From: Naegleria lovaniensis
Lineage: Eukaryota > Heterolobosea > Eutetramitea > Acrasida > Naegleriidae
Assembly (NCBI RefSeq): GCF_003324165.1
Contig: NW_025407823.1
Coordinates: forward strand, 1,019,214-1,083,213
Direction of reading: 5' to 3'
Length of the DNA: 64,000 bases
Shown here: positions 2,974 through 60,686 of the stretch, one piece after another
How positions within the stretch are numbered: the stretch's first letter is position 1
Layout: the number at the start of each line of letters is the position of its first letter
Program-made: the position numbers and the translations under genes
Notes under the pieces: generated by a model
Database searches by the model: none
What the model was told of the DNA's origin: nothing
What the model saw: only the letters and a program-made list of their open reading frames with translations

Positions 2974-4047
2974 ATGTCATCATCCGCACCCTCTTCCAAC
3001 AACATTTTTGACAAGATCTGGCAAGCAGATGAGAATCGTCTCACTCCCTTCTCATCAAAACCCACTTCTGTCTCGACTCCATTCATCACACTCGTGTGCA
3101 GTACTCAAAAGAAAAAACAAAATCCCAATTTCAATTTATTTCGTCTCTATAAATTCGATTCCTCTAAAAAACAATATGTTGTATCGAGTGTGCGTGAATT
3201 TATTGACACAGCTGCCCATTCGGAATCATCCTACAAGACCTATGGATTGATCTATAAATTATTTGACAATTATAATTTGGATCAACTCAAAAGAGAACAA
3301 AATACTCCTCAGGAAGAAGGTGAAATTTCAAACTTTTTAGATGCCATTATTGAAACCAAATGTATGAAAGTGTTGGCTCAGGACTATTTGAAAATGACGA
3401 ATAAGAGTGAAATCAAGAAAAAATTGTATTCAATTTGGTTCACTCAATATGATATGGGAAGAAATAGAGATTTGAGTGGATTTGAACATTGTGTGGTTGG
3501 TGAGAAGAATGCATCGACTGTGAGTGGATATCATTTTTGGTTTAAGGTGAGTGAAGGTGAAATTTTCATAATGATGCGTATTCCTAACAATATGTTTTGA
3601 CAATTGGCGAAAATGTATGCATGATCTCTGTGAAAAAATAATAATAATATATATATTATGGTGTGAAAATTTATGGACACGACAACACTGAAATAGTATT
3701 TGGTGGACGATTCCAATGACAACTTTTTAGGTCAAGATATGATTAATTTTGCTGGTCGATTGGACAAGGAAACTACTGCTGATTATGTTTGCATTCGTTT
3801 CAAACAAGATGAAGATGTCACCAATGACCACGGTGAGAATGATCAATTATTCAAATCTTGTGGTAGTTTTTGGGTTGGTATTTCACCCGAATGTTTCATG
3901 GCTTTGTGTACAGTTGCTCATTTGGAACATTTGAAAGGTCACAAGAAGGCCTTATCCAATGTGGTTGTAAATGGACATGCCTATACGGTTAATGTGTTTT
4001 CTGAGGGTGACTATCCACGATCAGTCTATCCTTCATTGAATGAATGA
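2974..4047 (+). CDS. EndoU/XendoU-family endoribonuclease
   Basis: Exons 2974-3546 and 3697-4047 (150-nt intron, GTGAGT...TAG, phase 0) give 306-307 residues. EndoU enzymes cleave RNA at uridylates, leaving 2',3'-cyclic phosphates, in a metal-stimulated reaction. The first exon ends in the diagnostic core GFEHCVVGE...GYHFWFK, supplying Glu171, His172, Glu177 and the second catalytic His187. The second exon carries an LFKSCGSFWVGISPEC segment with the probable catalytic Lys and the conserved G-x-SPE box, and ends near the family's YP motif. The length matches a single EndoU domain. No signal peptide is visible, so a cytosolic or nuclear role is inferred. The start was chosen because A-runs directly precede the ATG and it opens the conserved frame. 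Confidence 0.85.
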
Positions 4048-4157: not shown

Positions 4158-5288
4158 TCATTGAAAAATTTGAATTCGATGATTTTCCGTGTCGCATACC
4201 ATTAATTCACCATGTTGTTCATTCAAAGTCATTCCACATGGATTCTTAAATTCTCTCCAATTTGTTCCAAAACTTCCAAAAACTCTCAACAACTGCCCAT
4301 CCTCTGATAAAATTTGTATTCGATTATTATCTGTATCGCTTACAATAAAATTCTTTGCAGTCTTGTCATAAACAACGGAATAGGGCGTTTTAAATATTGT
4401 TGAATGCTCTCCTCCATGTCCACATTGTTTCATGGATTTCCAGTCGTTTAAGGCTGAACTTTCTCCATGTTGAAACATGTTCACACAATGCAAGGGATCT
4501 CCTTGTCCAATCAATAAGAGCCCTTTCGATGTAAAATCAACGCCAGTCGGACTCTGAATACTCATCGAGCAAAGCAGTTGACCATTCACAGAGTCCAAAA
4601 TTTTCACTAAATTCTCATACATATCGCTGACATAAACTTTGCAATTTGTGACTGTAATTCCGCGAGGACAATTGAATTTTTCATGTTTCCAAATGTATGG
4701 AAGAGGCTCATTAGGACGTTCTTTTGCTTGTTCAATTAATTCTCCCAAATCAAACTTGTACATGGCATCGGCAACTCCTGCAAAGATGATTGCGTCTTCG
4801 TAACATCCTTTGTAACTTTGTTCGACAATTTGAGTGATGGGATGAGTCAGGGTTAGAGTATGTGAAATACTTGTCATAAATTTCTTTGTATTTAAATGGA
4901 ATAATTGAAGTCTTCCATTCATATGATCACAAACAATGATGCATGAATGATTATATGATACTTTGACATCTGAAGGATAAGAAAAGTGATTGTCATCGGT
5001 GCCACTCTCATCTGTTGTTCCCAATGAATGAATCAATGTGAAACGCATTTGAAAAGGTTTCGGATACTGTCGCATGCGATGTTTGAATTTTTTGACAAGT
5101 ATTTGAATTTGTGAGGATGAACGGGAATGAATGTGTTCTCTCCAATACAAATTAAAAAGATGCAACGTGACTGGAAGGTTTTCGAATGAGAAGTGTACAT
5201 TTGAATGATCAAGATCTTTCATTGGATGGGAAGGACGTAGTGACGAGTTTTCATGGATGGAACCTGGGTCTACTTGTAGTGGTTGCAT
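4158..5288 (-). CDS. NHL-repeat beta-propeller protein
   Basis: A single-exon reading frame of 376 residues. The start at 5288 (MQPLQVDPG) is preceded by AAAACAAAAA, the usual context here; the same frame is open upstream to a TTG near 5384 without an earlier ATG. The C-terminal two thirds hold NHL-type blades: NCPRGITVTNCKVYVSD, KTPYSVVYDKTAKNFIVSDT and NPCGMTLNEQHGELMVCDT, each with the P-x-G/S...VSD pattern followed by N-R-I-Q-I-F/L. It probably folds as a six-bladed propeller used for protein or RNA binding. No RING, B-box or membrane segment is present, so the molecular role is unknown. Confidence 0.75.
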   Translation of the reverse strand: MQPLQVDPGSIHENSSLRPSHPMKDLDHSNVHFSFENLPVTLHLFNLYWREHIHSRSSSQIQILVKKFKHRMRQYPKPFQMRFTLIHSLGTTDESGTDDNHFSYPSDVKVSYNHSCIIVCDHMNGRLQLFHLNTKKFMTSISHTLTLTHPITQIVEQSYKGCYEDAIIFAGVADAMYKFDLGELIEQAKERPNEPLPYIWKHEKFNCPRGITVTNCKVYVSDMYENLVKILDSVNGQLLCSMSIQSPTGVDFTSKGLLLIGQGDPLHCVNMFQHGESSALNDWKSMKQCGHGGEHSTIFKTPYSVVYDKTAKNFIVSDTDNNRIQILSEDGQLLRVFGSFGTNWREFKNPCGMTLNEQHGELMVCDTENHRIQIFQ

Positions 5289-5517
5289 TTTTTGTTTTCC
5301 TTGCTTTTTAATTCCATGATAAACACTCTTCTTGAATAGCCCCAATTTTAGACAAGGGAATAAAAAGGGTTTGTGACATTTCAAGTTTTGCCATTGTTAG
5401 TATCAGTATATCATTGTTGAAGAAATAACAAATTTTAAACGGATGTCTTTGACAGTGGTGTTGTTTTCGTGAGTTTGAAACAGCAAAAGGATTAGTGAGT
5501 TTCAAGTTCAAAAAAAA

Positions 5518-11537: not shown

Positions 11538-13003
11538 TCATTGACCAGAAGAAAAAGAATTAATTTTTCCACAAAACAAGACACTTTTGGTTGGAAGATG
11601 ATGCAACACAAAAGCAAAAGGTCGATCCACCACAAATTCATATAATTTTTCTGTTGTTTGGCTTCTACGGGCACCTCCTTTTCCAAGTCCAACCATAGTA
11701 CATGCTGCGGCTTCCGTTCCATCTTCATCGGCCTTAATATACACTTTTTGAATGATTTTGGAAATGAATATTCTTTGACCATTGACATTTTCAGAAATTC
11801 CAGTAAAATTTGCTTGCAAGGGACTGAATGCGTGTTGCATGTTCAGAGGTGAGGATTTCAATACATCCGTTAAATTCTCTTTCACCTCCATGTTAAATTT
11901 AGGAATTTCAACTTTCCTGAATTTCAATCTTGTGGTTGGTGTGATTTGTTTCACATTTGCCAATTTTGAAAGAAACCATTCATCAAACTCTTGTTCACTT
12001 TCAACAGTGAGAGGAATACTTGTTTTGGGAATGATCACAATCATGGCATAGTTGGGATCTCGATAGAATAATTGTAAAATTTTGTACTGATGACGAGTTC
12101 ACCATACGAAAGAATGATTCCACCACTTGAAAACATTGACATGCGTTCACACTTGGTCGTTTCTCCAGTGGGATCCATGAGTGTTCTAAAACTCGCACGA
12201 GGATTAGTTCTGTTGATGTTGAATTTGTGCATCCAAGTACCTAAAAAGTGAATGGCGTTGACGAGGATTAGAGAAGTTGATTCGGATACATCACTTGAAG
12301 ACAACATGTTTGGAATGCGACCATTGGTTTTAGATTCAATCCATGAGTTGATTTTCTGAACTTGCTCCATGGGTTGTTCTTTAAAATTACATAATTCAGG
12401 CTCTGAATTGAAATATTGTTTCAGCTCACTTAAATATTCTAATTTCACATTTAAGGATTGTTCAAGGAATAATCGATTGGCCACTGATAGAGAAACAGAG
12501 ATTGGAGTGGAAGAACTTTCCACATTGGCACTTGTCTCTTCTGAAGAGGTCATTTTGAAATATTTCATACAAGTGTTCATATAACATTCCAAGTGTTCCA
12601 TTTTCCAATATTGCAACGGATTGAGCTCTTGCTCTGAGGAACAACCCTCAGAACATGATACCATCATACTTTCTTTCAATTGAAGAGCATGAACCAATTC
12701 AGAGAGTGTCTCGTCTTTGGATCCCATCAAGATCATCAGCATGACATGAAAAAAAGAAAATGGAGAAAATACCAAGTTACTCAAAGAGGCGCCGTTGGAA
12801 TTTTGTTTCATGAGTTGTGAAAGCATGACAGAACCGACTGCATTTTGTGCTGTTTGAAGTTTGTTTTCATGGCTCTTGTCTATGGCAACGGTAAATTGAG
12901 GAGTTGATTCGGTGTGATTCTTGGAACCTTGTTGAGTTTTAGATTTGGTTGTGGAGATTCTGGGTTGCAATTGCTTGTTTGCGGTGTTTAGTTCTTTTGG
13001 CAT
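11538..13003 (-). CDS. Intracellular serpin, probably inhibitory, with frame break
   Basis: A serine/cysteine protease inhibitor of the serpin fold, 488 residues if one base is restored. The start at 13003 (MPKELNTANKQL) follows an A-run; no signal peptide is seen and a basic, Gln/Thr-rich extension of about 60 residues precedes the fold. Core motifs are NLVFSPFSFFHVMLMILMG, VSLSVANRLFLEQS, INSWIESKTNGRIPNML, LILVNAIHFLGTW and the C-terminal DRPFAFVLHH. The hinge EDGTEAAACT matches inhibitory serpins (small residues P14-P9). The reactive loop after it is unusually long and contains an RR-S pair, so P1 may be Arg. The frame breaks near 12080 at GTACAAAATTTT; one more A gives KILQLFYRDPNYAMIVIIP, the expected strand. 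Confidence 0.85.
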
Positions 13004-13241
13004 TTTTTTACAGTTGGAAAGAATCAAAAGTTTACAACACGTAATTGTAAAAACAAGTGTATCGAAACGAAAATATTGGTTTTTCAAACACGTTAAATAA
13101 ACGAAGTGCAAAAAGACCACAAACTACCGAATGCGGAGCAACGATCACAATAGCTTCAGTATTTCTTATCTAATATTTGAACTCCAAATAAATTTTATAA
13201 GACATCGCTAAAGCAACAAAGCTCTAGATTACAAAAAAAAA
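13004..13241. promoter_or_regulatory. Divergent promoter region, serpin/STK19
   Basis: 238 bp lie between the start of the serpin (-) and STK19 (+). The region is AT-rich and both starts are preceded by A-runs (an A9 run directly before 13242). No individual element can be named. Confidence 0.35.
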
Positions 13242-18720: not shown

Positions 18721-19611
18721 TTAGAGAATTTTCTTCTTTTTATTGTCAAGTTCTTCGTCGTCTACGTCTTCCCATTCATCCTCATCATCCAGGTCATTAT
18801 CAGCAGAGTTCAATTCACCATCATGTTCCTCTCGTTCTGTTCGATCTCTGACGAGGACAGCTCTTCTCATTTCTTCAATATTGTATACCCAGCCATCCGA
18901 ATTCATGCACAATTTATCGTCAAGATTAATGTCATTCATCATTGAATTGAGATGTTCATTTTCGGTATGGTTGGCATCGAGAGGTACATTTTCTGCTGCT
19001 ATGGAGAAGGCTCGATACATGTCCTGATACATTTGATTGAGTTGTTGCTCATGTGATGATTCTAGAGATGAATCCTCTTGTTGTTGTTGAGATGCTGTTG
19101 TTGCCACGGTAATAATCATTTCACACACATCATCATCATTGAAATCTTCTTCTTCAGAGGATCCTGCAAGGCCGCTTTGGCCACTTTCCATCGTTGATAA
19201 TTGACAATACATGCACAGAGTTGGAGATTGTTGAACACCATGCATCAAAATGTCTCTGAAATGTATCTTGTAGGCAGTCAACGTATCGGAAAGCAATAAC
19301 AAGTGTTCCGATGAAACAAAAAGCTTTACATGTTCAACCATATGCTGCCTATCATTCTCTTCTGCAAAAACAAATTTTACGTTCACTCGGTGAGGACACG
19401 AGTAGATGATCATGGACGGCGAATTAGGTTGTTGCGCCGACACCCGTATGGAGGAAACTAATTCCTCTCGTGTGCTATTATTTGATAAGGGCTGAGAGTG
19501 GTGAATACTATGATTGGTATCACTGTGATCCAGTAACAATCTTCGGAGGTCATCTTCCTGTGTTGGTTGTCGTGGAAGAGAAATTTGCTGAACGGTTACG
19601 GGAAGAGTCAT
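18721..19611 (-). CDS. pICln-like methylosome subunit (candidate)
   Basis: 296 residues if translation starts at 19611 (MTLPVTVQQ), which follows an A-run; the frame is open further upstream through a CTG-repeat Ala tract (19687-19708) with ATGs at 19677/19674. The folded part shows a PH-like strand pattern: HVKLFVSSEHLLLLS, YKIHFRDILMHGV, a CMYCQL strand, a Glu/Asp-rich loop, then CEMIITVATT and a helix ending YRAFSIAAE. The tail is strongly acidic (DLDDEDEWEDVDDEELD). This order (PH fold with an acidic insert and acidic C-terminus) is that of pICln, the PRMT5-associated chaperone that loads Sm proteins. Similarity is moderate, so the call is tentative; another PH-domain protein is possible. 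Confidence 0.5.
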   Translation of the reverse strand: MTLPVTVQQISLPRQPTQEDDLRRLLLDHSDTNHSIHHSQPLSNNSTREELVSSIRVSAQQPNSPSMIIYSCPHRVNVKFVFAEENDRQHMVEHVKLFVSSEHLLLLSDTLTAYKIHFRDILMHGVQQSPTLCMYCQLSTMESGQSGLAGSSEEEDFNDDDVCEMIITVATTASQQQQEDSSLESSHEQQLNQMYQDMYRAFSIAAENVPLDANHTENEHLNSMMNDINLDDKLCMNSDGWVYNIEEMRRAVLVRDRTEREEHDGELNSADNDLDDEDEWEDVDDEELDNKKKKIL

Positions 19612-20056
19612 TGTTAATTTTTTTTTCCTTATTGTATTGGTTGAGAGTCTCCCGTCACCAATAATTGACCTCATCATACTGTTGTAACATGCTGCTGCTG
19701 CTGCTGCTGTTGTAACAGAGCCAAAACGATCCAAATCAAAGAAGGAGCTCCCTGGTGGTGGTTCATTGTGGATTGCTGCAACAACCAAAAAAATCCGCGC
19801 AAGCCAATCCCGCGAACATATTTACGACAAATTTTCTCACTAAGCCTTACACGCGATTGTATCTACGCGGATATCTCAATAGCAACAACGCCAAGAGCAA
19901 CAACAACACCAACAACCACAAAATAACGAATCGCTGTGCCATCCTAGTCTTCAACCCCACCCACTCTACTCGAGCAAGTCAGTCTGTAAATCTATTATCC
20001 ACTACCTTGTACAAAATCATAACCATTATTGCTCGAACGATCATCACTACCCTTAT
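19612..20056. promoter_or_regulatory. Divergent intergenic region, pICln-like/receptor cyclase
   Basis: About 445 bp. The left part contains a (CTG)n tract that could be coding if the pICln-like gene starts further upstream. The right part (19790-20056) is rich in AACAACAACACC-type words. It must hold both promoters, but no distinct element is recognisable. Confidence 0.35.
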
Positions 20057-23000
20057 ATGGCGTTATTAAGAATTATATTTATTTTCTTGGCTAGTAGTTT
20101 ACTACTTTGTAGTACTCACGTTGCTAAGGCTCAATCATCTTTTACTTTTAATCAAACATTATACGACAAGAAGTGGAATGATGAGTCCGAAATTGTGTTT
20201 GGACAGTCCACTGCCCTTACAGGTCAAACCAGGGAGTAAGTTGAAAGCATTTATATCACGTCCGGACAGATATCTGACATTCATGATTGCTATGGTCATT
20301 TCTCTCGTGTTCATTTCCCAACATGTATGTTGCATCTTCGCGACATATTCCTTGTTCGTGAATGATTTCAAACCACCCTCCTCTTATCGAAATGGCATGC
20401 CCACCACGATAGACTTGGATACCCGCTAATGGTCGGAATACAGGCAGCCTTTAAGGAAATTAACGAATTGGGAGGTGTGTGGGGAGGTAAAAAGCTCCGT
20501 CTCTACTCATTGGACGACGGCTATGAACCTCCTCGATGCATCAATAATACTCTCGTTTTGCTGAATAATCAGACAATATTTGGCCTATTGGGTTACATGG
20601 GTAAGTAGTCGACATGCACGGAATAACATGATATCATATTCATGCAACGTTATTCGAATGGTATTGAACATTCAACATTTTGCTGACGGTATCGAATTGT
20701 GTGAACCATTTTCAAACCATGTTTTCACACAATTCGAACACGTAAGGAACGGGTACAAGTCAAGCCATTCTCAATCTACTCATAGAATCAAAAATGCCTT
20801 ATATTGGGGCCTTAACTGGAGGATTGTTTCTACGTACGCCCTTCTATCCAAATATTATCAATGTGAGAGCCAGTTATCAAGACGAAACTGCAGCCATGGT
20901 TGAATATTTGGTCAACATTAAAATGTTGCGAAGGATTGCCATTTTTTATCAGAATGATGCTTTTGGAGTTTCAGGATTGGGTATGTGTTCATTTGTATTC
21001 GATTCATCGTATGTGTTCACGTTTACCCAATATGCTGCATTTACTGATTTTTATTATGGTGATGAATTCATGTGCTTTTTTGTGGAATGATTCATTCAAA
21101 ATGGACGGTCACAAAATTGGTGGATTTTTAACTTTTTATTTGACAACAATTTTTTAACATCTCTCTTAAAAAGACGGATCCACTCTTGCTCTGACCGCTC
21201 TTGGCATGAGCCTTGTTTCTAAGGGAACGTACGAAAGAAATACGATCGAAGTTTCGAACGCACTCGAATCTATTGTGAAAGGAAAACCACAGGCAATTAT
21301 TTGCATGTCAACTTACAAACCTACTGTAGAATTCATTAATCGAGTCATGGCCAGAACAGATTATGATCCTGCAATTTTATTCGTGACAGGCTCTTTCATT
21401 GGGTCAAATATTCTTCCATATAGAGATCGTGTTGTAATCACTCAAGTGTTTCCAGCTCCTACCAACACGAAATATCCAATCGTATTGTCATACCAACGAG
21501 CAATGAAAGCATACGACCCTACTTTCATTCCATCATTGGTTGAATTGGAAGGTTATATGGCTGCAAAGCTTACTATTAACATTCTCACACAACGAGTATC
21601 TGGAGATTTGACACGATCCAATTTCATTGATTTGCTCTATTCGTCAGGAACGTACGTGATGGATAATACAGTGGTTGGCCCCTATACCAAATGCTCCACA
21701 ACAAGCTCTTCTCGAAGATCCACATTTGTATTTGAGGACACATCTTCTTCCAATAATCCTATATTAACAGAAATTACTCCACCAAATCATGAGTCCTCTT
21801 CACACAGAAGGTACAAATCAGACCAAATTACAAGTCATCGCCTTAGGAGTGATTGGACCTCTAGAAGAGTATTGTCCACTTCCTCTTCTGCATGCTCTTG
21901 TAATCAAGGGCTTCGATCAGTGTGGAAGACCATACAAAACGCTGATGCTTCGTTCACAGAAATTGGAGATCCAGTTGTTTGGGATTTACCTGGCTCTTCA
22001 AGTTTCTCATGCTTTTTTGACCCTACCAAAATTTCTCTGCCCATTGTGTTTGGTCACATTTCAGACGGTAGCGCATACGACTCTGATTTCATTTCGGGAG
22101 TGTCTGCTGTGTTTAAAGACAGAAACGACAAGCAATCAGGTGTGAGAGGAAAGAGATTGGAAATTTTACCTATTGTCATCAATGGTACTGCTGTCTCTGT
22201 GGAGTCCCTAGTTAACGCCAGCAGAAAATTTGTGGTGGACAATAACGCCATAGGCCTTGTGGGAAGTAAGATTAATAGCATCCCAACAGCCACTTCGTTT
22301 TTAGAACAATTTGCATCACAGTTCAGTAGCATGGTGTTTATAAATCCAGAGACATCATTCGACACACCACAGTTGCGAGACACTTTTTCTCGTAACATTA
22401 TTCATTTAACCACATCTATTAGAGAGAGGTTGTTATCAGTCCTAGATTACAGTATGAATACTTTGGGATTGTCTCGCTTCTCGTTCATTAGTACAGGCGA
22501 CACCGATGGAAAATATATTCGCTCAGAGTTTATGAGAATGCTGGAAGAGTATGAGCTTTATTTGGACAGCGAGATTATGTTTTCCTCTTCGAATATCCTT
22601 TCTTCCTCTCAAGTCAAAGAGTATCTTACGGTTGATAATGCCAACGCTCAAGCGTTTGTAATATCAATACCAAAGGATGACATTGACTTTAGGGTTTTGC
22701 AGGAAATTCTTACTGGCATTGCATCTATCAAGCTCAGAAAAGAAATTGTCATATTTTGTCTGTATTTTAGGAATTTGCAGTGGGAACCAAGGATTGCTGA
22801 TTTATTGAACAACTCCTCGTTTTCGTCTATTAGTTTTTATTTGGTGGAGCCATTCCCCTACGTTCGTACAAAGCATTCGTTTATTGATACCTTTCAATCA
22901 GTCGTCAACAAGTATCTAACCACCCCCACCAAAAACACAACAGGTGTTGTTCAAGGTTTTTTAGTTGGAAGTTTTATAATTGAGATTCTTGACAATATTT

Positions 23001-25817
23001 CTCCACAATCCTCAATCTCTGGCTCCAGTTTTATGGACACTGTGTTTTCTGACTCTGAATTTATCAAGTACCAGATACCGTTCGGCCAATTCTCAACCAC
23101 AAAGAAGTGCAGTTTGGGAATGAGAACAAATTACATTGTTAAATTTGCGACCACTCAATTTGTTCCTGTAACAACAATGACTTTTGACAAATCTAAGTGT
23201 GGAGTTGATATGAATGCATTGAAAGCTAGTGTTCAAGCTCCAATCATTTTTGGTAGATTATATCCACTTACAGATACTAATGGCCAAAATTCATCTCAAC
23301 AATTGGACGATTTTTCAGCTGGCGCATTGTCCTTAATTCAAGCCATGAATGATTATCACGAACTGCCAAGAACCATACATCTCAAAACTGAATACTATAC
23401 CAGCGAAATAGATATGATACAAAAGGCAACAGATCTAATTGAAAGAACCAAAATTTTTGGATTTTTAGGTTCAAAAATCATTGGAAATGCCTCTGGGTTA
23501 AGTACCCTTATTGATGCACGCGGCACACCTCTAATCGGACCAGTATCCGGTCATACAAGTTTGCGTTCACCTTTTTCTAGATTTATAATCAACCTACGAC
23601 CATCCATTGTTGAAGAAGTAGTTGCAGTTGCTCGTTATGCACGCACCTTATTTTTTCAAGTTTCAGACCAATTGTCATTAACCATTCTTGTCGCAAATCA
23701 AGAATACTGGACTTCTGTATCACGAAGCGTAGAAGATTTCTTTGAAAAGAGTGCTGAAAATGTAAAGATCACCACCGTGCTAATGCCATCAAATACCAAA
23801 CGAACCATCAAAACTGACACGGTTGATTATGGAAATTTTGTTTTTGTTTTGGCCAATGAATATGACACATGTTCATTCGTAGCACGTGCAGGAGCTTCAT
23901 TAATTGGAATTCCTTCTGAAATCTCATGTCCAACTCTATCAGGTTTAAGAACAAATGTTGTTACCGCATCTTTTTTAGAAGCATTTTATTCGACGTCTTT
24001 CACCAATATTATGGCCAAAGAATTTATTCAATATTTTTCCCTATATTATCCTCAAAGGAACAAGACAATGCTTTCCTACGAAGGATTTGCTGTATGTACA
24101 ATGGTTAGCAACATTCTCAAGTATATGAAGAGTGTTAACTTGGACGTGACAAAGCAGTCATTTGTCTCAACTCTCTTCTACAGATCCACATTTGAACTTG
24201 GTGTCAATAATTTTGGACCATACGGAGATACTTGTGACACAAATAGCGGAACGACGTCAGGCACTAGTTTTACCAGATCCGTTTCCTCTACAAGCTCTTC
24301 CACATGCTCTTCCACAGCAGCTTTCTGTAGCTGTAATCAAGGAGCAAAGGAAATTTATCTCAACTTTTTGCAAGATTCCTTTGTCATGAAAAAAATTCAA
24401 AATTATTCACTACGTTTTCAAACTTGTGGAATTGAATATATTATTCCTGGTATATCAGCGGGAGGTATTGCAGGTATTGTGATTGGAGGAACTCTATTTT
24501 TTGTCATTACCTTGATTATTTGCATTGTAGCTGTAGTGATTGCAAAAAGAGATCCAACTGCCAAACATGCACCCAAATCAGGAAAAATAACTTGTGCATT
24601 TACCGACGTACAAAACAGTACTAAACTTTGGCAAAGCAATGAGAAGGCAATGAGGACAGCTTTAGAAATTCATAACACCATCATGAGATCAACATTGATG
24701 CAATTTAGAGGATATGAGGTCAAGACAAACGGTGATTCGTTTTATGTAAGTTTCAGTGATTTAGTGATTGGAGGTGGAATTATTTTTCACTATTTTGTTC
24801 TTTTTCTCAACAACATTAGGTCGTATTCAAAGACCCGCTAGATGCTGTCACATGGGCCATGGAGGTTCAACTTGCATTACTAAATGCTAAATGGCCAAGC
24901 GATCTTTATCATGAGTGGGATTGTCGTCAAGAATGGGATCCAAAAACTCGAAAAGCTTTCTGGAGTGGCTTACGAGTGCGTATTGGTTTGCATTATGGAA
25001 AGGTAAGTGTTAATCAATTGATTTATTGAGTTGAATAGATTACAACATGCACAACAGGGAGATTGTGTTTGGGACAAGGTAAGGATTATTTCACATGAAA
25101 AGTTCATTTTCTCAATATATTGTAAATGTTAACATTGTGATGATAGACCATGAAACGCTTTGACTACTTTGGAAATGTTGTGAACAAATCGGCAAGAATT
25201 GAGGCATTAGCACATGGTGGACAAATTTTAGTGAGCGAAGAATTGTTTTACAAAACTCGAGAATTGTATTCGAGCGTTGAATTTATGAGTGAGACGTCAG
25301 ATGGAAAAATGTACCTCAGTGTCGATGGTGCTCGTCATCACCCACTAAGCGAAACACATGACACTCCCTCAAGTGGTAGTTTCACATCAAGCTCCAAAAC
25401 AACTAACAGCTTTAAATCGAAACGACAGAGGGTTGCCATTGAAAGAACATTCACTGCTCGTGATTTAGGAGTTTATCCACTCAAAGGACTCTCTGAGTCG
25501 AGTCGAGTATTCGAAATTAAGTGCTCAGAGATTGAAAGCAGGACATATCCTCCATTAAGGTAAGTGTGTGAATATTATTTTTCTCTTTTCTGTCAATATA
25601 CAAATTTTCAAATAGGGTTGCTGTCGAAGATTTGGATCGTTCCGAGTCGTCTGTACAACGAGAATATCAAGAGTTCAAAAAACGACTGGATTCAGCTCGT
25701 CGCAGTAATGCCACTGCTTCAGAAGCTTCTCCCTATGACCAAACGAACTTTGACGCCATTGATGTTGACCAGGGTCAGCAGCAGTTGACGGAACGAAGCC
25801 CTGAGGAACACCCCTAG
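20057..25817 (+). CDS. Receptor-type adenylyl cyclase with triple periplasmic-binding-like ectodomain
   Basis: Eight exons: 20057-20235, 20413-20600, 20747-20980, 21174-24745, 24820-25002, 25058-25078 (only 21 nt), 25147-25559, 25616-25817. All phases agree and give 1,663 residues. Order: signal peptide (MALLRIIFIFLASSLLLCS), three successive periplasmic-binding-type ligand domains, one membrane span (about 1295-1325, GISAGGIAGIVIGGTLFFV), then a class III cyclase domain. The first and third ectodomain units each end in a Cys-rich CSCNQG motif. Catalytic residues are present: FTDVQNS (first metal Asp, about 1344), VKTNGDSFYV (substrate Lys and second metal Asp), DYFGNVVNKSARIEA (adenine-selecting Asp and transition-state Arg). 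The FWSGLRVRIGLHYGK and ALAHGGQILVS segments and the whole layout recall trypanosomatid GRESAG4-type receptors. The ligand is unknown. Confidence 0.88.
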
Positions 25818-26161: not shown

Positions 26162-27024
26162 ATGTACGGATATAACCCAGGAATGTATGTGCAACCAGGT
26201 ACCACAACTACCACAGTTACTACTTATTGGCAAGGTCCACAACCAGCATGGATGCCTGCTGGATTCGTAGTCGTAAGTATCATCAAAAATCTGTGATTAT
26301 CATATAGATCATGGACGTTATTAATTCCAATGATGAACATGGTAATATTACCATCCTCTCATCACGACGATCATGATGATGATTGTCCATCATCGTTCAT
26401 TGAAAAATGTCAAAATAATAATCATCTCATTCCGTGCCTGATATTCAACCATGAACAAACAACCCACTCATTGTTGCACATCAGCCTCCTCATGTCATGG
26501 CCAACCGATTCAACTATGTTCAAGCAGCTCAACAACTCTTTTGGCAATACGATCTTAACCGCAGTGGAACTCTCTCCAAGAAGGAATTCAAGTTTTGTGC
26601 TGCTACTCATTTCGGTATTCCACCAGTCAATGCCAAATATTTGTTTAGAATGATGGTAAGTGTACACTAGTGAAAGTTGTTGTTGTTGTTAGATCATTGA
26701 TGTATCTTGTTTTAACATTGTTTTCATGATGGATATATTTGGCAATTCATTTGCATTCCCATTGAACCACCCATGATGACACATATGCTCTGAACACAAC
26801 ATTTTCAGGATCGTGATGGTAACGGCGTGATTACTATGGATGAATTCATCAATGCTTACTTGTTCATCATGGCTGGAGGTGCCAGTTACATTACTCCAAT
26901 TCCATCATTCAGACATCGTATGGGAATGATGGGTGGTATGTATGGAGTTCCTCAACCAATGCCATACGGTGGTATGCCTTATGGTGGAATGCCATATGGT
27001 TATCCACCACAACCATTCAATTAA
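26162..27024 (+). CDS. EF-hand calcium-binding protein (paralogue 1)
   Basis: Exons 26162-26272, 26485-26655 and 26809-27024 (introns 212 and 153 nt, both phase 0) encode 165 residues. Two EF-hands are visible: DLNRSGTLSKKE and [12 protein letters not shown], both with loop positions 1, 3, 5 and 12 suitable for Ca2+. The N-terminus is Thr-rich (PGTTTTTVTTYW) and the C-terminus is Gly/Met/Pro/Tyr-rich (YGGMPYGGMPYGYPPQ). It is homologous to the inverted gene at 35529-36578: the first-exon end (WMPAGFVV versus WIPSGFQV) and the second EF-hand helix ([19 protein letters not shown]) match. Likely a cytosolic calcium sensor. An upstream in-frame ATG at 26036 would add a hydrophobic segment. Confidence 0.8.
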
Positions 27025-31420: not shown

Positions 31421-34400
31421 TCAAAGCTCGATTGGAACATAATTTTCAGTCAATGCCACATTCACATAACTCGACGTCAATGTTGTACCATGTACATTCG
31501 ATACTACCTTCTTACTTTCATCCAATCTTCCAATCCATAATTTACACAAATTCAGAATTTTAAAAATAGTTGGTCTCTGTTCGACATTCTGACTCAAACA
31601 ATCTTTCATGACTTTACAATATTCCCACACAATTTCTGAATGTGCTTCAATTTGTTTAAAACATTCATCTTCATTGCTTTCATCCTTGTATTGAATTCCA
31701 ACTAACGGATTGTCACTAATCCATGTAAAACAAGAAACTGCAGAATTGAACGGAATGGGAGCTTCATGCGAACTTGATGCTTGTTCCAGTGATCGTTCGA
31801 ACAGTAATTCCCACATGACTTTTCCAAATGCATAGACGTCGACTTTGGTACTTGGTTTTTTACTCGTGACACCATCGAGAGGTAAATACGCTGGAGTTCC
31901 AAGTGTCGTTTCTTCCTGCAGATTTGCACTTGTTTTTAAAGTCGTTCCAAAATCACAGATTTTTGCAATTTGATGTCTTTCATCGAGTAAAATATTATCA
32001 GGTTTTAAATCTCGATGCGTAATGTTGTTTTCATGAAGGTATTTCAATCCAATGAGAACTCCTTTCAATAAACATAACTTGTCAACAAAGGTACACTTTT
32101 CAGTTCCTTTCGAAAGAGAATAAATATATTTTCGAAGAGATCCTCCTCCCATATATTCCATAATGAGATACATGCTTCCTTCACGTCCATTCGTATTCGT
32201 GGAGATACTATCATCGTCAACATAGTCTTCATTTCCTCTTCTTTCACTCCATACAATGTGACAATATGTGGATTTCGCAATTTCTTTCAAATTGTAATTT
32301 GTACGAACATGGTACGAACATTGTATTTCTAAAACTACTAACCTTATAAAATTCAACTTCTCGTTCTGTTAAGGTTGATTTTTCAACTTTTTTTGCTGCT
32401 ACTAAAACTTCATCCCAATATCCCAAATAAACAGTTCCACTACTACCACTTCCTAATTTTTTGGTCTTGTTAATGGTGACATTACTAATGGGTAATAAAC
32501 GTTCTTCGAGTTGATAAACGAGAGGTTCCCGTAATCGATGGAATGATTTTCGTTTTTTCATGTTGTAATAACATTGAACAGCCACAATGGTAATCACACA
32601 ACAAATGGCAAGTGCAACAGTTGCAGCAATGACTGAAATAAATATTACAATTTTTTGATCCATCTGAGGTTCACACAACACTCCATAGAGACCTTGTGTA
32701 CATGAAAGTTTCTTAATCTTGTTGTTACTATTTTCACAAAATATAATGTCATTATTTTTTGTGACAATGACTGAGAATGGATTGTTGAGTGTTGCATTTT
32801 CGAAGGAATTACTGTCTCCTCGTAATCCAGTTCCAATAATCGTTGAAATTAAAGAATCTTTTTTTGTGACAATTCGAATGAGATGATGTCTTGTATCGGC
32901 AATCAAGACATCTCCATTGTTGGTGACAAATAGACCTCTATGGAATGTTTTGAATTTGGTTTTCAAAAATTGTACATTTCATGAATATTTTGTAAAATAA
33001 TCCAACTTGTCAAACTTACCTTGGAGAAAAGAGAGATGCAGAGGTAGCAGTAATTCCCGAGTCTCTGACATATTCAGTGAGCCCATTTCCTGCAATAATA
33101 TATACTGTGGTCAAATCAGGGCTTGCTTTTCGAATCATGTGATGACCAACATCACTCAAATAGAGATATCCTTCGTTGTCAAATTGTAGCGATGTTGGAT
33201 GAATGACACATGCTGTGGTGACGGGCATTTGAATGTATTGACTGGATCGAGGACATGGATTTTTTGGATCACCAATTCCAATCACAGTAGAAATGATACC
33301 GTCCTTGTCAATTTTTCGAATTCTATTGTTATCTATTGAGAATTTCATGTTTAAAAGGATTGTTTCACAAGAATGATATCATTTTAAGAAACAAGTTGTG
33401 ATTTAAAATTGACATCTTTGGTGAAAAGTAACTTACCTGAATCAGCAATAAATATTTCTCCCAACTTGTTAAGGGCAATACTCGTTGGAGTATAGAGCTT
33501 GGCGTCCTTTGCATAATATCCATCGCCACTATATCCTGAACTGCCAATAATTCCAGCAATTGTTTCTTCCGTTCCATTTTCATATTTCACTAATACTCGA
33601 TGATTGTAAGTGTCACAAATATATAATTCTCGATTGGGTCCTCGCACTGCACATTGAGGTCGAATAATGTTCGATGAGTTGACACGACCTGGATTGTAGT
33701 TTCCTGCCACAGTTTGTAAATTGTTGGTGGTCAAATCAAGAGATCGAATGACATTACTGTTTGTGTCAGCAATTAATACCTCATTTGGAAATTGAGGATT
33801 ATAACTCAGAGAGGTGGGATCATTTAAAACAACAGAAGTTCCAATTCCTGATTCAGAATATTCATAATTTCCTGCAAAGGTTTCAATAATATTCGAATCG
33901 AAAGAGACTTTTCTAATTCTCGAATTGAACGTATCAGCAATATATAAATTTCCGTCACAATAATTTAAATCGTCTGCAGAGTTAATTCTTGCATCTTTGG
34001 CTCGTCCTCCGTCGCCATCAAATCCAGGTCTTGAACCCATATATAAAAGTAATTCGTTTTTCTTTGAAATTTCATAAAGTCTACTCGTTCCTCGTCCACT
34101 AATGAGTATCGTTCCATTTCTCGTAAATGACATTCCACCTGGTGCTGAAATTGGAAATTGATGATTCAACGTTAATGTCGTTCCAGAAAGAATGGATGAA
34201 AATTGATAAACAACTCCAGCGTCTAAATCTGTCACATATAATCGATCATTGTTCACATCTGCAAACACTTTCTCAGGTCGTACAAATCCAGTAAATGCTT
34301 TTGAACTTGAACCAGCAAAATTGAGAGTCAGTCGTGTGGGAACAATCTCTGGTCCAGAAAATTCATAATAATTTTTTGTAATGATTGCATTGTAGGAATC

Positions 34401-35415
34401 GACAAAAAGCCATTCAGTTCGATACTTTTGTTTGGGATTTCTGTAGGCAGTGACAGAGGCAGCATTACGGAAATTGATAGGTACCTCAATTTCTCGAAGA
34501 TCTATTTTCGATTTGCACGTTGTACCTGGAGAACATGACACGAGTTCACTCCAACTTGCCTTAATAATCTGTGAATATAATAATAATTGTTTAACAATAG
34601 ACATCAAAAGATGATATTCAATAATGAATATTCAATTAAAATTATACAAAAATGAAATACTAAAACGGAATGGCAAAATGACCTACCTTTGTTCCATCGC
34701 TCACAAATGCAGTAGTTTTCACCATGCTCACATTTCCTTCAGTGATATTTTCACTCGATAATGCTAAACTTGTTGGAAATGCCAAATTCGATAATCTTCC
34801 ATCGTTGACTGAAGGCAACACATTGTCACGATCACTAATAACGGTTTCAATAATTCCATTTTGTAAATTAATTTTTCGAATTCTAATATTATTCGTATCA
34901 CAAAAATATAACTCATAATTATTCGAAATCATGTTGTAATGACAGAATAAACCACGGGGATGATTGAGCTGAGCATTCACGCTAGGGCCTCCATCACCAC
35001 TGACATTTGACATACCAGCCAATGTCGTGAGTGTGTACGGTGATGGTGTTGCAGGTTTCGAAGGAAGCGTTGGATTTTGAAGAGGTCCTTGTTCGTCCGT
35101 CGAATAATTCCAAAATATTTTCGGAGAGAAGGCTTCTATTGCGAACATTTGAATTAAACTTGCTGTGATTGTTGATGAAGCTATTATGGGCGTAATCGAA
35201 TCGAGGATTTGAAAAATGTAAAATTTTATAATACATGCTGACACGACTAGGATGATGATGGATAGTGAGAGTAGTAGTAATAGCACAGAATAAAAGGAAG
35301 AGGTGGTCATCTTGGACACCTCCACGCAGAGTGACTTGTTCTTTTTGGAAAGGTGCGCGAAGTGACCACGGAGCATTTTTTTCAAGAGCGTAAAAACACT
35401 AATCAACAGGTCCAT
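31421..35415 (-). CDS. NHL-repeat receptor-like protein kinase, with frame break
   Basis: Five exons: 35415-34687, 34568-33437, 33332-33020, 32937-32343, 32283-31421 (phases agree), about 1,210 residues with one base restored. A signal anchor (SVLLLLLSLSIIILVVSACII) precedes a long extracellular series of NHL blades such as YIADTFNSRIRKV, LIADTNSNVIRSL, YLSDVGHHMIRKA and LIADTRHHLIRIV. One membrane span (IVIFISVIAATVALAICCV) leads to a TKL-like kinase with GSGSSGTVYLG (P-loop), VAAKKVE, HRDLKPDN and CDFGTT. The APE motif is replaced by AYLPLDG. In exon 5 the frame shifts after GVKEE; adding one A to GGAAATG continues it as NEDYVDDDS, then YLIMEYM. An alternative start lies at 35310. Confidence 0.82.
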
Positions 35416-51176: not shown

Positions 51177-52661
51177 TCACTTTTCTGTCATGTTCAGAGA
51201 AATTTCTCCCACATCTTGCTGTGAAATCAAACCCTCCGATCTATGCAACAGGTCAGACACAAATTTCATATCGGAAAACAAACCTTCTTCCAGGCCCATC
51301 TTTTCTCTGCTTGCAATTGGTCGAGCTTTTGGTAAATTCCACACCAGTAACTCTTGCAACAAGTCCCCCACCAATTGATTCATCTGTTTAACATCTTTTA
51401 GATGCATCACGTCACGAATCATCGCCAATTGGTCATGAATTAGCCTCTTCCTTTCCGTTGCACACTCCCACATCGTTTCAATGGTGTAGATATCTATTGA
51501 TGTTACTTTTCCTTTCAAACGAACTGTATCCACAAAGAAACACATGATACTGTCTTTCACTCTCTTAAATGTTTCCTCTCCAATCAATATTGGCAATTCG
51601 TAATGCTTGCCCAGCGTCTCCAGTCGACTAGCCGTGTTAACGCAATCACCAATTGCTGTATAGTTGAAACGTTCCACCCAACCTATATTTCCAATCATAG
51701 CTTCTCCAGTATTGATGCCAATACGAATGTCAATGAGAGGCCAATTCATCATCAGTGATTTTTCTTTGAATTTTTCAATTTCGAACAAAGCTGTAAGTGC
51801 TGCATCACAGGCACACTTTGCATGACAGTTCAGAACTCGGTGCGGAATCGAAAATAAACTCATGGTTCCATCTCCAATGAACTTATCAATGACTCCACCA
51901 TGATTTTCCACCGCTTGTGAAACAATGGAAAAATACGTGGACAGAACCTCAATCAAAACGGAAATGGAAGTGGTTTCAGAAATGGTTGTGAAATTTGCAA
52001 TATCTGTAAACATGACACTTGTGTGTATATTAACCATTCCCAAGTGAGCAAATTGACCTGTCCTTACAATATCACAAACAAGATCCCTAGGAATGTAGTG
52101 CATGAATGTGGTTAGACCTCTCTTGATGGCTTCCGTCGATTTCTGCAGCAGTGACAATTCATAAATGATGTTCAACAATTTGCTCGAAGTCACATTTCTA
52201 ATTTCCATCTTTGACAACTTGATATTGTTATTGACGACCTTATAGATGGATCTGGCCACCAATTGTGTTAACACAATCATGCAAACGGTTCCGAGAACGA
52301 TCAAGACAATACTGATAGTGAGTAACGCTGGACTACCAGAAAATATTGTATAAATGTATCCATTTTCAGCAGTAGAGACAACTAGAACCCAATCCAAACC
52401 GTTGTCTCGTATGGACCACACACTTATTCTCCTATCGTCGTGATAAAATACCGATTCTGTAATGCTCAAGTGTTTGTCCAAACGTTGGTTACTGGCACCA
52501 GAGGCCAACTGAGATGATGATGTGTGCAAAATGGTACGTTCGGTGAGTGCTGTTGCGAGTCGTTTGTATCGTTCGTTGGTATGAGCAAGATGCAATCGAG
52601 AACCATTCGATACGGTTGGCGCCGAAAAGGAAGTGGACACTAACAGGCCATTTCGTTCCAT
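51177..52661 (-). CDS. Class III adenylyl/guanylyl cyclase, 5'-truncated at a repeat boundary
   Basis: 494 residues in one exon. Only the end of a sensor ectodomain remains (WSIRDNGLDWVLVVSTAENG), followed by a membrane span (LLTISIVLIVLGTVCMIVLT), a HAMP-like helix and an intact cyclase domain. Catalytic residues: MFTDIANFT (first metal Asp), DKFIGDGTM (Lys and second metal Asp), YTAIGDCVNTASRLE (Asn and Arg of the transition state). A helical tail follows. Related receptors in this window have about 250 more residues and a first membrane span. Here the coding sequence stops exactly where repeat A begins (ATG at 52661-52659; repeat from 52662). The ORF itself is unbroken, so it could be a functional truncated form or a decaying copy. 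Confidence 0.8.
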   Translation of the reverse strand: MERNGLLVSTSFSAPTVSNGSRLHLAHTNERYKRLATALTERTILHTSSSQLASGASNQRLDKHLSITESVFYHDDRRISVWSIRDNGLDWVLVVSTAENGYIYTIFSGSPALLTISIVLIVLGTVCMIVLTQLVARSIYKVVNNNIKLSKMEIRNVTSSKLLNIIYELSLLQKSTEAIKRGLTTFMHYIPRDLVCDIVRTGQFAHLGMVNIHTSVMFTDIANFTTISETTSISVLIEVLSTYFSIVSQAVENHGGVIDKFIGDGTMSLFSIPHRVLNCHAKCACDAALTALFEIEKFKEKSLMMNWPLIDIRIGINTGEAMIGNIGWVERFNYTAIGDCVNTASRLETLGKHYELPILIGEETFKRVKDSIMCFFVDTVRLKGKVTSIDIYTIETMWECATERKRLIHDQLAMIRDVMHLKDVKQMNQLVGDLLQELLVWNLPKARPIASREKMGLEEGLFSDMKFVSDLLHRSEGLISQQDVGEISLNMTEK

Positions 52662-53046
52662 GGGTTTGGCTCCACCTACTCTTTTTTTTGAGCCATTTTA
52701 ACGACTTTACTATCAAAAAAAAATTTTGATTTCAATAAGTCCTGTCCACGGTCCGAAGTTAACTGGTGAGGACGAGATATACTCAAATCCTAGGCTAATT
52801 TTCATTTGCTTTCTAATGGTGTTGAAATTTCTAAGAGATGTGAAGTGGTTGTTGAGTTATTTCACTCTGAATTTTGAAGGTAAATTGGCCCAAAAAAAAA
52901 TTTAATGTTGTAAATGAAGAGGGGATGATTATTTATTATCGGACTGGTATTTCAAACTGTAAAACCAGAGAGAAGCAATGAAATTGGAACACAAGGTTTT
53001 TGAGGACTTGTAATTTTTTGTAAAAATATTTTGGACTCAAAAATTC

Positions 53047-53545
53047 CAAGTTCAAAATGATAGAGAGGTCCAGCGAAAATATGAAATATAGCTCTTTTTC
53101 AATAAATACTGATCAGCTGTATCTCAAATTGATATATGAAGTGTTACTCACCATGTAGAACACTAATATTATGGTTGTGTGCTGATGACTGACTCCTGAC
53201 GCGGAAATATGGTACTCCTAACCTCAGAGTGTGTCCGTGAGGGTGATGTTGCTTGACATGATATTCTCCTGATAATTAAACGAAGAGTGTAGTGTGTATG
53301 AGAGCTTTGTAGAGTGTTTGTATTGTTTGTGACATGAACAACGACGTACCTGTTGAATGAATCAGCTCCAGTGTTGGAGAGTCGGTTTTTCGCTGGAGGT
53401 GGAATATTTTTAAAAAATTTCAAAGTTCAAAATGATAGAAAAGTCAAGCCAAAACTTGAAGTGAGGCTCTATTTCGATAAATACTGATTGATATCATCTC
53501 TAATTTGAATATATTGTGTAACTTACTGGGTGAAATATTGTTATT
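53047..53545. repeat. Internal degenerate duplication within repeat A
   Basis: Two segments about 360 bp apart (53047-53164 and 53406-53545) share a pattern: TTCAAAATGATAGA, then GTC-AGC-AAAA, then AATAAATACTGAT and TCT-AATT-ATAT. The same pair occurs in copy 2 at about 56228-56350 and 56598-56740. It indicates that the A unit itself grew by an older duplication. Confidence 0.6.
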
Positions 53546-54120
53546 AGATTTAAATTGAAGAAACAGAAACTGACTTGTGAGGAAGTGCACGTTTCTCTCC
53601 AGAGGCTTTTTTCATGATGATCTTTGATTTCTAGGTTACATACTATATATCAACAATTAGGTATTGATGTTATCTAGATGTACGTTTTGAAAATTTTAAT
53701 ATTTGTGAAGTAGTTGTTGAGATATTAAGGATCAAAATGAGCTTTCCCGGTCAGATCACGTCAAATGTCCCTCTTGACCAAAATATCTAAAATAACGATT
53801 CCATTTCTTGGACAGATATTTGGGTTTGGATTCCTCTCAGTAGGATTTTTAAAAAGATTCAATATAACAATATATAATTTGTTTTTAATATCAATTAGTC
53901 CCACGCAGAGAGGAAGGAGGTATTAAGCGAAAGATTTCTTGTTGTTATAGTGGATATCGAGATGACCCCTATTTTTGTACTAAAAAATCAGGTCCTGTGG
54001 TGATTGACCATCCTCAAAAATTTTCGTTTAATGATCAAAACTTGAATATTTCCATCAATTAAGATATAAGGAAGTAAGGCGCTGCTGTTTCGTTCGAGCT
54101 GAATGTGAAAATAAGCAAAT

Positions 54121-54225
54121 ATTTTGTGCGTCCAAGTTGGTGATATGTAACTCTTGAAGTTGGTCATGATTCAAATATGGATGAGCAAAAGTCGGTATTC
54201 CCTCGAAATTGGATACCGTTAACGT
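54121..54225. repeat. Motif M, copy 1
   Basis: A roughly 100-bp motif: TTTTGTGCGTCCAAGT, GGTGAT, AACTCTTG-AGTT, then ATGGA-GAGCAAAA, ATTCCCTC and GGATACCGTTAA. Lies in the right part of repeat A copy 1. Confidence 0.7.
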
Positions 54226-54901
54226 TGATTGAAGAGTCGTTTCGTGATATGTTGGTCTTGAACAGCTTCCATGATGGATCTCCAAAGTAATTGTTGCTGT
54301 GAACCACACTTTTGATGATTATACACCCTCAATAAAATCAGCCATAATTCATTGATGCTGTTTTCATCATGGATGGAATATTGAATTATCGTTGTTGAGT
54401 CCTATCCCGAAACATTGTTATGGAATCTTAATGCGAGTGAGTCTTTTTGATGACTGAATCATTGAAATTGAGTTGAGTTTCTATTGTAGTTGTGAGTGAT
54501 GAAAGTTGCTACTGTTCTACATTATCATCATAAAATGTATACCAGACACAAATGAACATTGAATTCATTTAAGACGATAGAGGGAGGTGTGTTCTTGTTT
54601 TTCTGTGTTTAGCTTCATTCAATGAAAAGGGTTGTATTGATCATGATGAGATTGGATCTAAACAATGCTTTGAATTCGACAACGCTTCATCAAGGGTGGT
54701 GATTTATTCACTAAATGTCATGAGTACAAACCAGGAATTGAACAGAATCACCTCTGGTTCATACCTGATTGAAATTTGAACAGTTCCTTTTTCATGTATT
54801 GATTATTGAGTGACTCCGATTGTTTGGTAGTTGTTGTTATTGTTGAACATTGAGTGCCCTCATCTTAATAGTGGTATGAATAGCCGGTGAACATGTCCTG
54901 T

Positions 54902-54999
54902 AATTTTGCGCGTCCAAGTAGTTGATGTTAACTCTTGGAGTTTGTTACGATTTTTAAATGGACGAGCAAAAATTCGTTAATACATTCCCTCCAAAACGA
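54902..54999. repeat. Motif M, copy 2
   Basis: Same motif (GCGTCCAAGT, TTAACTCTTGGAGTTTGTTA-like, TTTTTAAATGGACGAGCAAA, CATTCCCTCCAAAACG). It marks the right end of repeat A copy 1; sequence similarity to copy 3 of A ends within it. Confidence 0.7.
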
Positions 55000-55852
55000 T
55001 TACGGATGAACCATTCACAAACAACAGCAGGAATGGTTCAGTGTTATACTGTTCAGCAAGTAAGTGATGGAATCATGATCGATACAATTTCACAATTTGA
55101 ACTTGTATTCGTCCTGGTCTGCAACTATTTTGGATCTTTCATCGAATGAATTCAATGTTTAATGATACATTCATCAGTATGTCATGAGATTCTAACTATG
55201 ATAGATGTACTTGATCACTGAGTGTTTATTGTTGTGTCATCTGTATCGAGTTGGTGGAGCGCTCTCATCTGTTGTATGATTCATTGCAAGAAGTTACCTT
55301 GTTGTATTTTGCATTTGTTTGCTGTGATTTATTGTTGGAAACAAATGTTCAATATGATGATTTTCATGATTTGTGCATGTACTACATGGATGGTGTGCAA
55401 GGTGTGTTCATGTTTGTGGTCGTCATCTCATTTATTGAATTTCGTTCAGCAAGTGATCATGTTTATAGTTGATGGATTGTATCCTTTTGAATAAATCATG
55501 ATGAACTACATTGATAGCGATCATCTTTATGTGTGTTTCAAGTGTGTTGTTTGATTCATTTGACTAATCTCTACAGACTGTACTGACCATAACATTTGGC
55601 GGATGAAACATAAGATGAAAATGTGTGTGGTAGATTTCATGTTTTCCAAATTCTGATATTCATTGGAGTACATGTTGACCATGATGATGTCATGATATGG
55701 GATTGATTTCGGGGATCCATCTTTTATGTTCATTGTGAAGTATGCAATAAAATGTTAAATAGTTGATGGAGTTGTGCACCACAGAGATGACATGAATTTT
55801 GATTATTCTGTCATCATCATGAAGTAATCATGGTATATTATATGTTACATCT
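54975..55852. other. Gene-free spacer between repeats A1 and A2
   Basis: About 880 bp rich in TGTTG/TCATGA words, with short ORFs on both strands and no recognisable product. Sequence style resembles repeat B, but I did not find a clear long match. Confidence 0.4.
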
Positions 55853-57010
55853 GGGTTTGGCTCCACCTACTCTTTTTTTTGAGCCATTTTAACGACTTTA
55901 CTATCAAAAAAAAATTTTGTTTTCAATAAGTCCTGTCCACGGTCCGAAGTTAACTGCTGAGGACGAGATATACTCAAATCCTAGGCTAATTTTCATTTGC
56001 TTTCTAATGGTGTTGAAATTTCTAAGAGATGTGAAGTGGTTGTTGAGTTATTTCACTCTGAATTTTGAAGGTAAATTGGCCCAAAAAAAAATTTAATGTT
56101 GTAAATGAAGAGAGGAAGATTATTTATTATCGGACTGGTGTTTCAAACTGTAAAACCAGAGAGAAGCAAGGACATTGGAACACAAGGTTTTTGGGGACTT
56201 GGAAATTTTTTTTTGAAATGTTTTGGACTCAAAAATTCCAAGTTCAAAATGATAGAGAGGTCTAGCGAAAATATGAAATATAGCTCTTTTTCAATAAATA
56301 CTGATCAGCTGTATCTCAAATTGATATATGAAGTGTTACTCACCATGTAGAACACTAATATTATGGTTGTGTGCTGATGACTGACTCCTGACGCCGAAAT
56401 GTGGTACTCCTAACTGCTGAATGTGTCCGTGAGGGTGATGTTGCTTGACATGATATTCTCCTGATAATTAAACGTAGAGTGTAGTGTGTATGAGAGCTTT
56501 GTAGAGTATTTGTATTGTTTGTGACATGAACAATGACGTACCTGTTGAATGAATCAGCTCCTATGTTGGAGAGTCGGTTTTTCGCTGGAGGTGGAATATT
56601 TTTAAAAAATTTCAAAGTTCAAAATGATAGAAAAGTCAAGCAAAAACTTGAAGTGAGGCTCTATTTCGATAAATACTGATTGATATCATCTCTTATTTGA
56701 ATATGTTGTATAACTAACTGTGTGGAATATTGTTATTAGATTTAAATTGAAGAAACTGACTTGTGAGGAAGTGAACGTTTCTCTCCAGAGGCTTTTTTCA
56801 TGATGATCTTTGATTTCTAGGTTACATACTATATATCAACAATTAGGTAATTATGTTATCTAGATGTACGTTTTGAAAATTTTAGTATTTGTGAAGTAGT
56901 TGTTGAGATATTAAGGATCAAAATGAGCTTTCCCGGTCAGATCACGTCCAATGTCCCTCTCGACCAAAATATATAAAATAACGATTCCATTTCTTGGACA
57001 TATATTAGGT
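55853..57010. repeat. Repeat A, copy 2 (left + middle parts)
   Basis: Starts with the same GGGTTTGGCTCCACCTACTC and follows copy 1 collinearly through its middle part, to CCATTTCTTGGACA. It then diverges, lacking the right part. Many point differences separate it from copy 1, including in short open frames, so those frames are not under coding selection. Confidence 0.85.
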
Positions 57011-60631: not shown

Positions 60632-60686
60632 TATTTAAGGCCAACAATTTAAAAAAAAAAGCCGAAAATCGTTCTATCGTGGTAAC

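Follow-up and report, generated by a model that had tools for sequence, protein, structure and literature searches.

Are the receptor-type adenylyl cyclases of trypanosomes a product of their own lineage, or do they continue an older receptor class that survives in other protists? The question is raised by a gene, here called HetRAC, at 20057-25817 on the forward strand of a 64,000-nucleotide stretch of the Naegleria lovaniensis genome (contig NW_025407823.1, positions 1,019,214 to 1,083,213, assembly GCF_003324165.1); this whole stretch is the window below, and all coordinates refer to it. A 2018 review describes receptor-type adenylyl cyclases as a trypanosomatid hallmark and their natural ligands as unknown at that time (PMC6027212). 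Judged from its sequence, HetRAC is a single-pass receptor adenylyl cyclase, and most likely, with a probability that we put at roughly 0.6, it shares with the kinetoplastid receptor cyclases an ancestor in which a periplasmic-binding protein (PBP) ectodomain, a transmembrane span and a cyclase were already joined. Two results carry this reading: the Pfam family PF25493 ("Peripla_BP_A-cyclase") matches the whole protein at 44.0 bits, against a cut-off of 27.2, in three stretches that correspond to all three units of the ectodomain, and four related trees of the catalytic domain pair HetRAC with the trypanosome GRESAG4 enzymes at 87-89 bootstrap.

The gene and its receptor layout

The raw frame of HetRAC is interrupted by stops, and after splicing of seven introns, all GT...AG, there is one open frame of 1,663 amino acids in eight exons (20057-20235, 20413-20600, 20747-20980, 21174-24745, 24820-25002, 25058-25078, 25147-25559 and 25616-25817, stop included). 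The start ATG at 20057 and the stop codon at 25815-25817 match the ends given in a preliminary description of the sequence, and the main exon stays open for about 1,190 codons, for which the chance is about 1e-37 at the window's composition. Exon 6 is a microexon of 21 nucleotides within the cyclase domain, and it is supported because the seven residues that it encodes align with the trypanosome enzymes without a gap (by eye). The three ectodomain introns all fall in the first unit, the second and third units lying within one intronless 3.6-kb exon.

The preliminary description had proposed a signal peptide, a PBP ectodomain, a single membrane span and an intracellular class III domain, and the gene model, Pfam and hydropathy all agree with this receptor-type layout. 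The signal peptide covers about residues 1-25 (20057..20131; hydropathy 2.26 over residues 1-19, cleavage point placed by eye) and is followed by a large ectodomain with 12 N-glycosylation sequons. Hydropathy marks one membrane region, with a strong window at residues 1306-1324 (peak 2.99) that a weaker one at 1290-1308 overlaps, and we place the span at about residues 1304-1326 (24482..24550, ends by eye). The class III cyclase domain occupies residues 1335-1493, in exons 4-7 (24575..25248), and the C-terminal region behind it (25249..25817), aligned with GRESAG4 and with cyclases of the planctomycete phylum, consists of a low-complexity insert, an LG..PLKG...SR.YPPLR segment and a charged tail. 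Over the whole protein, Pfam reports Peripla_BP_6 at 157 bits, ANF_receptor at 51 bits and Guanylate_cyc at E 2.3e-25.

The kinetoplastid ESAG4/GRESAG4 and TcAC enzymes likewise combine a PBP (Venus flytrap) ectodomain, one span, one class III domain and a C-terminal tail, and they share with HetRAC the PF25493 ectodomain family and conserved catalytic residues. The number of flytraps differs: HetRAC has three units, whereas two are described for most T. brucei enzymes (PMC6027212) and one to two for those of T. cruzi (PMC10470820). Receptor cyclases of one or two PBP domains thus have a precedent in trypanosomes, and what is new is an ectodomain of three units, the outer one bacterial-like; among the matches listed by a literature search, which did not cover the N. 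gruberi genome paper, we found no PBP-receptor cyclase described for Naegleria or other heteroloboseans.

The three ectodomain units and their bacterial relatives

As far as can be read from sequence and predicted fold, the ectodomain is three tandem type-I PBP (Venus flytrap) units. Unit 1 (residues 44-484, exons 1-4, 20186..22024) matches Peripla_BP_6 at 134.5 bits, against a cut-off of 31.7 (E 8.9e-39), and its residues 44-361 match PDB entry 4kv7 at E 2.9e-45, the sequence match on which its fold assignment rests; structure models were made for the other two. The strongly diverged unit 2 (residues 485-888, 22025..23236) has no Peripla_BP_6 match when scanned alone, and unit 3 (residues 889-1293, 23237..24451) reaches 21.7 bits, under the cut-off (E 1.9e-4). 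AlphaFold2 gives both a type-I PBP fold, with pLDDT 75 and pTM 0.78 for unit 2 and pLDDT 68 and pTM 0.74 for unit 3, and the best Foldseek matches in the PDB are 4m88 (E 2.3e-16) and 4kv7 (E 4.5e-13), respectively, those of unit 3 also including GABA-B, NPR1 and GluK2. The PBP membership of these two units rests on the predicted fold, and the models were built on 17 bacterial PBPs (for unit 2 with unit 3 added), an input that biases toward a PBP fold. NCBIfam returned one match far under cut-off for unit 1 and none for units 2 and 3. Local alignments of unit against unit indicate that the three are mutually homologous, with shuffle z values of 20 (1 vs 3), 9 (1 vs 2) and 5 (2 vs 3), although in the last pair the real score was matched by the top-scoring of 300 shuffles. 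The tandem triplication that the preliminary description had suspected is borne out by these scores and by the structure predictions for units 2 and 3, both of them PBP folds and neither an unrelated one. Its remark on a CSCNQG terminus in two of the units is correct as to presence, the motif lying at residue 441 in unit 1 and residue 1252 in unit 3, with CSLG near the equivalent place of unit 2 (by eye). The motif is no special terminus: because the bacterial PBP consensus at this place is HQGS..V.LT, CSCNQG is the ordinary last, C-terminal strand of this family, to which cysteines have been added. It is preceded by a Ser/Thr-rich insert in unit 1, and unit 3 has a Cys/Ser-rich loop.

The bacterial relatives come from one bacterial genome scan that used as seeds a short pattern around DDGYEP and another around RASY.xET. 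Of its 591 candidates, 493 were related stretches, and the 80 best of these make up the set used here (L001-L080). Unit 1 is 36-42% identical to these, units 2 and 3 only 15-22% identical to bacterial PBPs. Of the 78 positions at which 90% or more of the bacterial proteins agree, 64 are retained in unit 1 and 21 in each of units 2 and 3, a low count that is compatible with a structural function and equally with new ligands, such as the multi-ligand sensing suggested in the preliminary description would require. The likeness of unit 1 to the bacterial DDGYEP-type Peripla_BP_6 proteins, among them 4kv7 and 3lop, extends to the (H/N)QG of the C-terminal strand. Unlike the flytrap of a receptor, the bacterial proteins stand alone (377-491 amino acids counted from the first ATG, in 12 loci that were inspected), and where a signalling gene directly follows them it encodes a chemotaxis receptor or a histidine kinase, not a cyclase. 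Because 15 of the 80 directly precede such a gene (histidine kinase in seven, methyl-accepting chemotaxis protein in eight), our data suggest that part of this family is sensory. A signalling partner is present in 8 of the 10 top-ranked loci; against a sensory role, no kinase, chemotaxis or receiver match turned up for 62 of the 80 within the flanks examined, which reached at most 4 kb and were in some cases shorter, the seeds for the partner search being taken from the same loci. Scans of viral contigs with cyclase and PBP queries found no relatives.

The ectodomain may accordingly be traced to a bacterial PBP family whose sequence unit 1 has largely kept, units 2 and 3 having probably arisen by internal duplication. 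Duplication is favoured because the scores of units 2 and 3 against unit 1 (92 and 172) exceed those against three bacterial relatives (45-58 and 70-81). The tree of PBP units speaks less clearly, its branches being long and the clade of the three HetRAC units having a support of 38/24, and it has to be counted against this history. The contrast between unit 1 and its neighbours could also be explained by domain replacement, in which the membrane-proximal units would go back to an ancient receptor cyclase and unit 1 would have been added afterwards by lateral transfer from a bacterium. The higher bacterial identity of unit 1 is what such a history predicts, and units 2 and 3 have the better single-unit matches to PF25493 (E 2.8e-5 and 1.1e-4); yet the alignment scores fit a unit-1-like ancestor that was duplicated, PF25493 weakly matches unit 1 as well (E 0.0063), and unit 1 holds three introns. 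Replacement therefore seems to us distinctly improbable.

Kinship of the cyclase domain and of the receptor

The domain is a class III cyclase with adenylyl-type catalytic residues and is predicted to make cyclic AMP (cAMP). It matches Guanylate_cyc at E 2e-26, its best PDB matches are GRESAG4.3 (1fx4, E 2.2e-31) and GRESAG4.1 (E 3.3e-30), and all six catalytic residues are present and invariant with respect to both: D1345 and D1388 for metal, K1384 and D1465 for adenine, and N1472 and R1476 for the transition state. It would be a great surprise if HetRAC were a silent pseudo-cyclase or a guanylyl cyclase when this set is intact and its Lys/Asp pair is of the adenylyl-cyclase type. The match to atrial natriuretic peptide receptor 1 is weak (E 0.08). 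A second class III cyclase lies in the window at 51180-52661 on the reverse strand (Guanylate_cyc E 8e-21), described as an open frame only and preceded by a hydrophobic segment (by eye); in the first tree below it stands far from the HetRAC domain.

The preliminary description had taken the catalytic sequence pattern as a mark of kinetoplastids, and this part fails. HetRAC is 39% identical to GRESAG4.1 and 4.3, short of the 83-87% that the review gives among trypanosomatid enzymes (PMC6027212), and cyclases from other groups are about as close. At E<=1e-10, relatives occur in 17 of 294 genomes of the phylum of locus L051 (Planctomycetota), in 2 of 398 from the phylum to which L010, a Burkholderiales record, belongs, and in 0 of 58 of the phylum of L001, and the best 10 of 110 plasmid records hold bacterial cyclases at 30-33% identity. 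The six planctomycete-phylum loci used from the 17 matching genomes (L089-L094) are open frames of about 500-1,100 amino acids with a cyclase domain of the same subfamily as GRESAG4 and fungal CYR1 and with identities of 37.4-42.6% to HetRAC across the alignment; L091 is the strongest match (42.3%, 135 bits), and L090 reaches 42.6%. L091 has AAA-type ATPase matches, under their cut-offs, after the cyclase and no PBP match. The CYR1 fragment of S. cerevisiae that we used is unverified, a full-text search with peptide strings having found nothing to check it against; it is 44% identical to HetRAC, and the PDB matches include no fungal member of the subfamily. CYR1 itself is a leucine-rich-repeat protein. 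It shares with HetRAC and the planctomycete-phylum cyclases the motifs EVKT.GD, VR.G.H, DY.G and GGQ, and the occurrence of close motifs in the planctomycete phylum rules out the catalytic motifs as kinetoplastid-specific. We likewise rejected the post-catalytic "SR..LR" as a kinetoplastid signature, its tail score being reached by 144 and 72 of 1,000 shuffles; it is further undercut by a related R.F.P segment in the planctomycete-phylum rows, with the exact SR.FPP found only in L091. The same review describes an extra 36 residues, the delta-subdomain, as conserved in trypanosomatids (PMC6027212). In HetRAC the insert at this place is much shorter.

What links HetRAC to the kinetoplastids beyond the general layout is the ectodomain profile and the trees. 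PF25493, which to judge by its name would be built from kinetoplastid proteins, is the sole Pfam match of unit 2 scanned alone. At E<=0.1 it matched none of 17 bacterial representatives drawn from the 80 kept relatives, it exceeded its cut-off in none of the 398 genomes of the L010 phylum, and none of 14 control genomes gave a match; at E<=0.001 the 398 genomes held one match of 18.4 bits, under the cut-off and to another part of the profile. PF25495, a related short family, matches the whole protein at 17 bits, under its cut-off, and is uninformative because unit 1 and one bacterial protein match it about equally (E 0.0034 and 0.0037). In the first cyclase tree (12 rows), HetRAC joined the unverified CYR1 fragment at 70/71, and neither a grouping of HetRAC with GRESAG4 (approximately unbiased test, p-AU 0.397) nor one of GRESAG4 with CYR1 (0.291) was rejected. 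A second tree adds the six planctomycete-phylum rows and flanking segments; it and the later variants leave out the first-tree rows L081 and L082 and the second window cyclase, and L087, with no tblastn hit, is in no tree. There, HetRAC pairs with GRESAG4 at 87/84, and in three post-hoc row-removal variants at 89/83, 87/97 and 89/86; in the second tree, grouping with L091 has a p-AU of 0.0115.

Several observations weigh against common receptor ancestry and have to be set beside these. PF25493 stays under its cut-off on every unit scanned singly; plain catalytic identity does not favour kinetoplastids over L091, L090 or the unverified CYR1 fragment; and the delta loop, from a conserved Trp to GL, has 24 residues in HetRAC and 23 in that CYR1 fragment but 40 in GRESAG4.3. 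Besides the first tree, the later ones too leave a pairing of HetRAC with CYR1 unrejected (p-AU 0.13 in the second tree, 0.12-0.13 overall), as well as, where tested, one of GRESAG4 with CYR1 (0.12), and the tree tool starred no branch joining HetRAC and GRESAG4. The receptor link proposed in the preliminary description is accordingly supported in part, by the profile and the later trees and not by the first tree. The chief rival is convergence: the HetRAC lineage and the kinetoplastids would each have coupled PBPs of bacterial type to a cyclase subfamily of the CYR1/planctomycete type, itself widespread, and would match in layout and function with no shared receptor ancestor. The first tree and the unrejected pairing with CYR1 speak for it. 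The breadth of that subfamily suits such a history, and so does unit 1, which is much nearer Peripla_BP_6 than the adenylate-cyclase PBP profiles (16-18 bits). Against convergence stand the PF25493 match, spread over all units and found over cut-off in none of the bacteria searched, and the pairing with GRESAG4 in the four related trees, and we consider it unlikely, though a serious contender; descent from a shared receptor remains our preferred reading.

Mechanism and wider meaning

Flytrap ectodomains of the type-I PBP fold also signal across the membrane in the natriuretic-peptide receptor guanylyl cyclases, GABA-B receptors and ionotropic glutamate receptors. The natriuretic-peptide receptors have one flytrap and a kinase-homology domain. 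By analogy with the trypanosome enzymes, HetRAC would sit in the plasma membrane as a dimer, and a small solute, perhaps from bacterial prey, would close unit 1 at its outer end. The diverged units 2 and 3 may act as dimerisation or relay modules or may bind other ligands, and the movement would bring two cyclase domains together as a head-to-tail active dimer and raise cAMP. We propose that HetRAC works as a dimer and that closure of unit 1 is passed on to a pair of cyclase domains, because trypanosome cyclases need dimerisation of their catalytic domains, for which a role of the N-terminal domain has been proposed, according to the review (PMC6027212). Sensing of prey solutes and control of encystation are plausible contexts; N. 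gruberi is reported to have conserved PkaR and RegA, which belong to the encystation pathway of amoebozoans (PMC4399386), and a count of at least 81 cyclases has been given for Naegleria (PMC9928731).

A Voldacs (volume-decrease regulator) gene at 18721-19821 on the reverse strand lies head to head with HetRAC, and a small EF-hand-like gene follows downstream at about 26164-27024 on the forward strand, its matches being under cut-off. Genes for a serpin, an XendoU endoribonuclease and NHL/teneurin-type repeat proteins lie at 12041-13120 (reverse), 2974-3597 (forward), 4161-5384 (reverse) and 33387-35415 (reverse). At 52661-63526 there are long dispersed direct repeats, in blocks of 167-300 nucleotides with 76-98% identity, spaced by about 3.0-3.2 and 5.2 kb, and this right end of the window has few long open frames. 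Rfam and tRNA scans of the 64-kb window found nothing, and one protein of the window, compared with the PDB as a guide to a heterolobosean affinity, gave just three weak GST matches.

Overall, a protist homologue from outside Euglenozoa would point to a receptor class older than parasitism. Going a step further, and only tentatively, since we hold it at somewhat less than even odds, the receptor cyclases regarded as a trypanosomatid hallmark may go back to an ancient discoban receptor for solutes that came about when a bacterial PBP, of the family found in part beside chemotaxis receptors and histidine kinases, was fused to a cyclase of the fungal/planctomycete type, with the bacterial unit well kept in the outermost position of HetRAC. 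If this is true, the bacterial relatives of unit 1 could reveal what class of ligand the founding receptor bound. With so many of the bacterial conserved positions retained, unit 1 offers a practical route to a ligand and to the flytrap switching of a single-pass cyclase.

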